Shown: positions 53,550 through 54,928 of the stretch, in pieces
Layout of the letters: the number at the start of each line of letters is the position of its first letter
How positions within the stretch are numbered: the first letter of the stretch is position 1
Origin: Planctomycetaceae bacterium
Lineage (GTDB): Bacteria > Planctomycetota > Planctomycetia > Pirellulales > PALSA-1355
Assembly: GCA_003153375.1 (NCBI GenBank)
Contig: PLYM01000212.1
Span: 1 to 64,000, forward strand
Length of the DNA: 64,000 nucleotides
Direction of reading: 5' to 3'
Translations under genes and position numbers: made by a program
The notes under the pieces: generated by a model
Database searches by the model: none
Seen by the model: the letters and a program-made list of their open reading frames with translations, nothing else
Told to the model about the DNA's origin: nothing

Positions 53550-54092
53550 TTAGAGGCGAAGGCCCAGCAAATCCTTGACAAACCGACTGAGATGGTGAAG
53601 AAAACTCTCATCGGCGGGTGCGGCGATTGAATCGGCTGGTAGAGTTTCGTCGATTCCTAGCCCGAGAGTGTTTAGGACTTCTTCGCGCACGCGGTCGATG
53701 TTGAGACCGCGGTTCTCAAGTACATGGAATGCGATGCCTTCTTTCTCCCCTAAAAGTCCCAACAAGATGTGCTCGCTGCCGATATAGCTGTGTCGCATGT
53801 TGCGGGCTTCTTCCAGCGAGTGCTCGATAACTTTTTTCGACTGCGGGGTTTGGGGAATCTTGTTCGACGTCACCGGGTCTCGTCCGGATCGCATGAGTTT
53901 CTCGACGTCGAGGCGGATTGTTCGCGAGTCAACGTCCAGGTTTCTTAGCACCTTGACCGCGACACCGCCCCTCACTTTCAGCAGGCCGAGCAGCAAGTGC
54001 TCCGTCCCGACGTATTCATGATTGAATCGCCGGGCCTCCTGCCAGGTCAATTCGATCGCTTTTCGGGCTCGGTCTGTAAATCGCTCGTACAC
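53550..54092 (-). CDS. Stand-alone Clp N-terminal domain protein (ClpC-N like)
   Basis: A 180-residue protein that is the duplicated N-domain of ClpC without the AAA+ rings. Repeat 1 is at about 1-70 (RFTDRARKAIELTWQEARRFNHEYVGTEHLLLGLL is its hallmark, in two parts) and repeat 2 at about 80-150 (ARNMRHSYIGSEHILLGLL). A short tail follows. It could act as an adaptor or decoy for the ClpC/P protease, which is inferred. It uses a GTG start (VYERFTDR as coded). It is divergent from lexA; the 233-bp space contains a candidate LexA site, so SOS control is possible. Confidence 0.85.
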   Translation of the reverse strand: MYERFTDRARKAIELTWQEARRFNHEYVGTEHLLLGLLKVRGGVAVKVLRNLDVDSRTIRLDVEKLMRSGRDPVTSNKIPQTPQSKKVIEHSLEEARNMRHSYIGSEHILLGLLGEKEGIAFHVLENRGLNIDRVREEVLNTLGLGIDETLPADSIAAPADESFLHHLSRFVKDLLGLRL

Positions 54093-54239
54093 GGCAGCTC
54101 GCTCTTGCTAGATGGGCATGGGTTCGCGACCAGCGAACCCAACACAACTCATCGTAACGAAATCTTCCGCCAAACCCACGAAGCGGCCAGAGAAGCACAA
54201 CAGCGCGATTGCTCTGCCAGCAATTTTCGGGCCCTGCGG

Positions 54240-54280
54240 TGTACAAACGCTATTGCTTATGTACAGGCGTATATTATAGT
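54240..54280 (+). promoter_or_regulatory. Candidate lexA promoter with a paired TGTACA element
   Basis: TGTACA occurs at 54240-54245 and again at 54260-54265, exactly 20 bp apart; each hexamer is itself palindromic. They flank a promoter: TTGCTT (54253-54258), a 16-base spacer, TATAGT (54275-54280), about 45 bp before the lexA ATG. The position and two-turn-like spacing suit autoregulation by LexA, but the site is not a known SOS box that I can name for this phylum. Confidence 0.5.
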
Positions 54281-54325
54281 GGAGGGCGGGTAGGATCCCT
54301 CAACCGATAGGATGCCAGCAAGATC

Positions 54326-54928
54326 ATGTCACAGTTCGACCAACTGACCGAGCGTCAGAAGGACGTGTACGACTTTATTCGCGACAAGATTCGCAACCGT
54401 GGCTATGGGCCCACGGTGCGGGAGATCGGCGAGAATTTTCAGATCAGCTCGCCCAACGGCGTGATGTGCCATCTGAAGGCCCTGGAGAAAAAGGGGCTGA
54501 TCACCCGCGAGCCGAACATGTCGCGGGCCATTCAATTGTCGACCGAACCGGCCGAATTGCGGGGTCTGCCGCTGGCCGGACGCATCGCTGCCGGCGTGCT
54601 GCACGAGGCGATCGAGCAGGATGAACGCGTCGACTTCGACGCCATGTTCAGCCAAAAGAACCTGTTCGTGCTCAAAGTGGCTGGCGATTCGATGATCGAC
54701 GCCCAGATTGCCGATGGCGACTACGTCGTGGTTCGCAAGCAGCGCACGGCCCGCGATGGCCAAATTGCGGTGGTGCAAACCGACGAGGGCGAGGCCACGC
54801 TGAAACGCTTCTATCTGGAGCGAAACCGCATTCGGTTGGAACCGGCCAACTCGATGATGAAGCCGATCTACGTGAAAAGTGCTAAGATCCTGGGCGTGGT
54901 CGTGGGCGTGGTGCGCAAGGTCGACTAA
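54326..54928 (+). CDS. lexA: SOS-response repressor LexA
   Basis: A 200-residue dimeric repressor with autoproteolysis on RecA activation. The N-terminal winged HTH (about 1-70) holds LTERQKDVYDFIRD, YGPTVREIG and SPNGVMCHLKALEKKGLI. The cleavage site is Ala89-Gly90 in RIAAGVLHE. Catalytic Ser122 lies in VAGDSMID and Lys160 in EATLKRFYL, 38 residues apart, close to the Ser119/Lys156 pair of E. coli. It is complete and probably active. It is divergent from the Clp N-domain gene. A paired TGTACA element overlaps the upstream promoter. Confidence 0.95.
   Translation: MSQFDQLTERQKDVYDFIRDKIRNRGYGPTVREIGENFQISSPNGVMCHLKALEKKGLITREPNMSRAIQLSTEPAELRGLPLAGRIAAGVLHEAIEQDERVDFDAMFSQKNLFVLKVAGDSMIDAQIADGDYVVVRKQRTARDGQIAVVQTDEGEATLKRFYLERNRIRLEPANSMMKPIYVKSAKILGVVVGVVRKVD

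Follow-up and report, generated by a model that had tools for sequence, protein, structure and literature searches.

Which of two divergent genes is served by a pair of TGTACA boxes in the gap between them, and what binds there? In the window, by which we mean the whole 64-kb stretch of DNA that was analysed, lexA (54326-54928, + strand) encodes a protein of 200 aa with a winged-helix DNA-binding domain and an S24 self-cleaving domain (Pfam LexA_DNA_bind, PF01726, E = 1.1e-23; Peptidase_S24, PF00717, E = 1.4e-28). A gap of 233 bp (54093-54325) separates it from the divergent gene of a stand-alone Clp_N protein (53550-54092, - strand), which contains two Clp_N stretches (Pfam PF02861, E = 1.3e-33). 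A first-pass annotation had proposed that the shared region places the Clp_N gene under SOS control and links DNA damage to ClpC proteolysis. The sequence comparisons reported here make it very probable that the boxes belong to the autoregulatory lexA operator of the order Pirellulales.

A lexA match is present in 94 of 97 relatives. The LexA protein of the window aligns over its full length with the solved LexA chains 3k2z, 7ocj and 7b5g, and keeps the residues that align with Ser119, Lys156 and the Ala-Gly cleavage site of E. coli LexA. The roles of residues in self-cleavage and DNA contact are those described in the available text of PMC3091678; among the five DNA-contact residues given there, three differ from E. 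coli in the alignment (Ala42 to Gly, Glu44 to Met and Glu45 to Cys). Of the 48 order-level LexA proteins (from 90 loci) that a script pattern could read, 47 have the helix SPNGV[MV]CH, the exception being SPNGVRGH at locus L200.

The boxes are predicted half-sites of dyads in the lexA promoter

The two boxes were confirmed at 54240-54245 and 54260-54265, 20 bp apart from start to start and with 14 bp between them. They had been described as flanking the lexA -35 element and the spacer, a detail that differs on reading. The likely -35 element, TTGCTT (54253-54258, + strand), reads TTGACT in many relatives, and the likely -10 element, TATAGT (54275-54280, + strand), follows after a spacer of 16 bp, at a place where TAnnnT was read by eye in relatives. 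A consensus promoter scan of the region called no promoter, and both elements were assigned from reading of the sequence and from conservation. Box 1 lies upstream of the -35 element, but box 2 sits within the spacer, before the -10 element, and the spacer is therefore not enclosed in full by the two boxes.

Taken singly, TGTACA is not rare: the window contains five copies against 2.9 expected, and 22 of 100 shuffles reach five. The exact pair TGTACA-N14-TGTACA occurs a single time in the 6.70-Mb assembly, and pairs with up to two mismatches are not enriched genome-wide (33 versus 40 in the reversed control). Pairs with one mismatch at other places in the genome (L032 and L033) are surrounded by unrelated reading frames.

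Box 2 forms the left half of TGTAC-N4-GTATA, a dyad of 14 bp. This dyad, hereafter dyad 2 (TGTAC-AGGC-GTATA, 54260-54273, + strand), lies in the promoter spacer, is the only exact match to TRWAC-N4-GTWYA in the 64-kb window and is the predicted main LexA operator. Box 1 belongs to a weaker dyad, dyad 1 (TGTAC-AAAC-GCTAT, 54240-54253, + strand), which begins 20 bp further upstream and is a predicted auxiliary operator with three mismatches to the pattern; its left half is perfect, and its right half is degenerate and runs into the -35 element. The true unit is, by our prediction, the dyad TRWAC-N4-GTWYA and not the paired TGTACA. By reading, the E. coli-type box CTGT-N8-ACAG is absent from positions 54240-54325.

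The dyad is conserved upstream of lexA in Pirellulales

The 350 bp upstream of lexA were read in 90 order-level genomes (30 plus 60 more) of the 94 with a match; G005, G028, G032 and G061 (contig edge, partial or weak match) were left out. TRWAC-N4-GTWYA was present exactly in 64 of the 90 genomes and with at most one mismatch in 78, compared with means of 0.35 and 6.1 over 20 rounds of dinucleotide shuffling; these counts, like those for recA below, are partly circular because the motif was chosen from lexA and recA upstream regions. With 300 bp of upstream sequence, the counts were 61/90 and 74/90. When the gap between the half-sites was varied from 0 to 24, a gap of 4 gave the 64 exact sites, followed by gaps of 24 (35 sites) and 16 (18 sites), both secondary counts being due to the two boxes themselves. 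The exact TGTACA pair was found upstream of lexA in 16/90 genomes and the pair with at most one mismatch in 35/90, with none in any of the 20 shuffle rounds, which puts the pair at lexA well beyond chance. A frequent upstream pattern in these genomes is TGTACA-nnY-GCTATTGACT-n-TGTACA-nn-CGTATATTAT.

A second set was made of 80 lexA loci from named records, of which 77 were usable (L357, without upstream sequence, was excluded). The closest records include Pirellulales MAGs, Lacipirellula, Bythopirellula, Botrimarina and Adhaeretor. The dyad was exact in 64 of the 77 loci and within one mismatch in 69, and exact sites include those of Bythopirellula polymerisocia, Lacipirellula limnantheis and Adhaeretor mobilis. 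Fifty-one of the named loci are not identical to members of the first set and are therefore independent of the choice of the motif; here the dyad was exact in 48 and within one mismatch in 50.

Where a good lexA dyad was present, a TGTACA-like box was found 20 or 21 bp further upstream in 45/78 genomes of the first set and 37/69 named loci. Two families, f8 (0/11) and f17 (0/10), keep dyad 2 but lack a box 1 at the 20-bp distance. The half-sites themselves vary: family f8 has TGAAC, and the right half sometimes changes together with the left, as in TAAAC-N4-GTTTA in two members of f7 and in TATAC-N4-GTATA and a perfect TGTAC-N4-GTACA in f17. No lexA site within one mismatch was found in 12 of the 90 genomes, namely 7/9 of family f3, the sole f6 genome and 4/10 of f15. 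Outside the order the motif fades: among the 18 of 20 fetched phylum-level stretches that gave an alignment, one had an exact site and five a site with at most one mismatch (shuffle means 0.05 and 1.35).

The dyad recurs upstream of recA, imuA and an M78/IrrE-type protease gene

The first-pass annotation had pointed to other SOS genes as places where paired TGTACA might be sought. By that criterion the pair as such fails: it is not the arrangement read at recA or imuA, and uvrA has no dyad above chance. The dyad does recur at recA and imuA. Among 30 recA upstream regions sampled from 55, 29 have a site with at most one mismatch and six an exact one (shuffle means 2.15 and 0.05), with the partial circularity given above; the recA gene of the source genome carries an exact dyad. 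In 16/30 of these regions, two sites with at most one mismatch lie 15-16 bp apart around the -10 element. An early reading of the recA regions as one wide dyad, TGWAC-N19-GTWCA, was abandoned, as it resolves into the two sites in these 16. TGAAC or GTTCA halves occur at several recA promoters.

At imuA in relatives, all 15 upstream regions counted have a site with at most one mismatch, three of them exact (shuffles 1.3 and 0). This count omits L135 (KaiC-like), L138-L140 (dnaE2 upstream regions only) and L132 (frame unclear), of which L132 has an exact site, L140 a site with at most one mismatch and the other three none; across all 20 stretches fetched, the figure is 17/20 with at most one mismatch. 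The imuA sites often read GRTAC-AWWT-GTACA, and several begin with G. In the source assembly, searches found no DnaE2 above the cut-off and no second RecA-family match of the kind that marks imuA.

Three further genes were counted. For uvrA, with one copy read per genome, exact sites were found in 0/30 and sites with at most one mismatch in 2/30 upstream regions, at shuffle level (mean 1.3, maximum 5); loci L392, L398 and L399 are cut by contig ends, and the stretch taken there may be misplaced. The clpC control gave 0/10 relatives' loci with at most one mismatch. The canonical dprA control gave 0/27 exact sites and 3/27 with at most one mismatch, slightly above shuffles (mean 0.65, maximum 2), with one cut locus (L263) whose stretch may be misplaced. 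Because of these 3/27, isolated one-mismatch sites mean little.

Genome-wide, the 6.70-Mb assembly contains 10 distinct exact sites of the form TRTACNNNNGTWYA, including those at lexA and recA. Genome-wide counts of the dyad do not stand out from those of the reversed-pattern control (6 and 10 versus 5 and 7; 182 versus 174), and since the total hardly exceeds this control, the meaning of the dyad lies in the position of its sites, not in their number. One exact site is located 23 bp before the gene of an M78 (IrrE N-terminal-like) protease (L202, 1501-1514; contig C64, 106661-106674, beyond the window). In Pirellulales (L231-L250, a sample of 20 of the 35 genomes with a match), 17 of the 20 M78 upstream regions have a site with at most one mismatch and 11 an exact one (shuffles 0.6 and 0); without the seed genome the former count is 16/19. 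The dyads of relatives lie 29-60 bp before the match.

This conserved dyad suggests a link between two damage-response strategies. In Deinococcus, proteases of the IrrE type cleave the repressor DdrO, according to the available text of PMC5552922. By analogy, LexA might control the M78/IrrE-type protease, which would in turn cleave a second repressor, so that the SOS response would trigger a proteolysis-based damage regulon. Such a two-stage cascade is a tentative idea that we hold to be rather doubtful; if true, it would join two damage systems known as alternatives.

Another exact dyad, TGAACAATTGTACA (L077, 1337-1350; G000:C216), is found in the source genome at a distance of 64 bp from the accessory dprA that it precedes. 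The genome has a second dprA-like gene at C70, and we regard the accessory dprA as a lead. Five further exact TRTACNNNNGTWYA sites are those of L203, L204, L206, L207 and L209, and the one in L206 (1501-1514; G000:C140:30309-30322), TATACTTATGTACA, precedes by about 42 bp an ATG that is internal to a DUF2569 gene. The remaining one of the ten, a perfect dyad, TATACAACTGTATA (L208, 1501-1514; G000:C277:6723-6736), is found 45 bp before a 169-aa frame with no Pfam match and just upstream of the promoter-like TTGCAC-N16-TATAAT.

The Clp_N gene is most likely a neighbour by rearrangement

The layout of the locus invites the proposal of shared control: the Clp_N gene is divergent from lexA and the 233-bp gap holds the operator, so LexA might act on both genes, and damage would then raise a ClpC-related protein and alter ClpC proteolysis. 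We judge this very unlikely. The Clp_N gene was found beside lexA in none of 29 relatives, same genus and same family included (with some 1.5 kb upstream covered, or about 0.5 kb for L005), and in none of the 80 named loci (seven with less than 500 bp of upstream flank). In a genome of the same genus, lexA directly adjoins the gene found upstream of Clp_N in the window. The dyad nearest to Clp_N is the weak dyad 1, which starts 147 bp upstream of its start codon, and no dyad with at most two mismatches lies between the Clp_N gene and the operator. The lexA side of the proposed SOS control is supported: the site is conserved there, and its dyad recurs at recA and imuA.

The supposed link from DNA damage to ClpC proteolysis is not supported either. 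A ClpC query (first 649 residues) against the draft assembly, which is 96% complete, turned up nothing but this N-domain and a ClpB-like gene. G003, a genome of the same family, has ClpC about 11 kb away on the far side of lexA; the gene order that the source genome shares with G003 stops just before this point, and the next stretch has no ClpC. G002 is also without ClpC. In G001, from the same genus, the only ClpC traces are a contig-edge fragment with 51 identical residues and a match of 38 residues, so an assembly gap at ClpC is possible in the source genome too.

The Clp_N protein is about 66% identical to the N-domain of the full-length ClpC of relatives, and among 56 relatives 54 have a strong Clp_N match (E = 1e-39 or better). 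The Clp_N gene of the window could be what is left of a ClpC gene, or a free N-domain that moved next to lexA; it is most likely a neighbour by rearrangement that LexA does not control. At 54119-54141, 26 bp before the Clp_N start, there is a perfect inverted repeat of 9 bp around a 5-base loop (tgggttcgc gacca gcgaaccca), perhaps a hairpin or the site of another regulator.

Proposed autoregulation of lexA

The dyad is conserved, with a fixed 4-bp gap and a promoter position, and it recurs at several SOS genes. We infer that LexA binds it and represses lexA, and that the two dyads cooperate. A LexA dimer would bind the 14-bp dyad at 54260-54273, between the -35 and -10 elements, and block RNA polymerase. 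The weaker dyad 1, which starts 20 bp further upstream, overlaps the -35 element and lies on almost the same helical face, would probably hold another dimer or a half-occupied one. Upon DNA damage, activated RecA would induce self-cleavage of LexA, and lexA, recA, the imuA cassette for mutagenic, error-prone repair (in the relatives having it) and the gene for the M78/IrrE-type protease would be released from repression.

Two other readings of the site were weighed against LexA autoregulation. A regulator other than LexA might bind the dyad, the co-occurrence with SOS genes then reflecting another damage-responsive repressor. The link between LexA and the dyad is one of sequence, and the order does have M78/IrrE-type proteases, whose Deinococcus counterparts act on DdrO (PMC5552922, available text). 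The site is nevertheless most constant at lexA, which autoregulation would predict, it has the form of the LexA boxes given for cyanobacteria and Bacillus in the accessible part of PMC3091678, and the recognition helix and the motif are both conserved across the order, which together make another regulator most improbable. It is just as hard to credit that one LexA dimer bridges both TGTACA boxes as a wide unit, TGTAC-N16-GTACA: a box 1 does lie 20 or 21 bp upstream in the 45/78 good-dyad lexA regions noted above, yet families f8 and f17 keep dyad 2 without a box 1 at 20 bp, the recA, imuA and M78 upstream regions read carry the 4-bp-gap dyad without the pair, and the gap scan peaks at 4.

The TGTACA direct repeat as such was also considered as the operator and rejected, because the pair is missing from the recA, imuA and M78 upstream regions read and because the gap scan favours the dyad with a gap of 4.

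Relation to known LexA boxes

The cyanobacterial LexA box is given as RGTACNNNDGTWCB in Nostoc, with the predicted consensus AGTACWNWTGTACT, in the available text of PMC3091678. The Pirellulales dyad resembles it in its length of 14 bp, its dyad symmetry, its 4-bp gap, its GTAC...GTWC core and its location upstream of lexA and recA. It differs in its outer bases (T...A instead of A...T), in a relaxed second position of the half-site (TRWAC) and in the frequent presence of two dyads 20-21 bp apart at lexA. The Bacillus subtilis, or Gram-positive, box CGAAC-N4-GTTCG, as quoted in the same source, has the same gap and geometry, and TGAAC or GTTCA halves occur in Pirellulales; here the outer C...G is replaced by T...A, and GTAC prevails over GAAC at most Pirellulales lexA sites. 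The outer bases are thus neither the R...B of Nostoc nor the C...G of Bacillus as these are given there: at the window site they are T...A, as the pattern by its definition requires of every exact site.

E. coli LexA likewise has an autoregulatory operator overlapping its promoter; its box, CTGT-N8-ACAG (quoted in the accessible part of PMC8565304), differs in half-site and gap, and the protein in three of the five DNA-contact residues. This article, on Bacteroidetes, mentions 17 reported LexA motifs, and its main text does not contain the string "planctomyc". On planctomycete LexA, the available text of PMC3108266 says no more than that it fails to recognise the E. coli box. The open-access literature searched yielded no account of a LexA box from planctomycetes.

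The dyad groups the Pirellulales LexA box with those of cyanobacteria and Gram-positives, and we treat it as a lineage variant of that geometry, not as an identical motif. A defined dyad and a list of targets make the SOS response of Pirellulales testable.

In Verrucomicrobia, a sister lineage within the PVC group, LexA reportedly uses the motif TGTTC-N4-GAACA. It shares with the Pirellulales dyad the 4-bp gap and the outer T...A, and differs in the half-site (TGTTC there, TRWAC here); one Pirellulales recA locus, L050, carries TGTTCATTTGAACA. This locus belongs to a divergent member of the order, G019, whose LexA is 58% identical and has the changed recognition helix SPNGVRGH; its recA has the TGTTCATTTGAACA site and its lexA (L200) a perfect TGTACACTTGTACA, and G019 may show the motif in transition.
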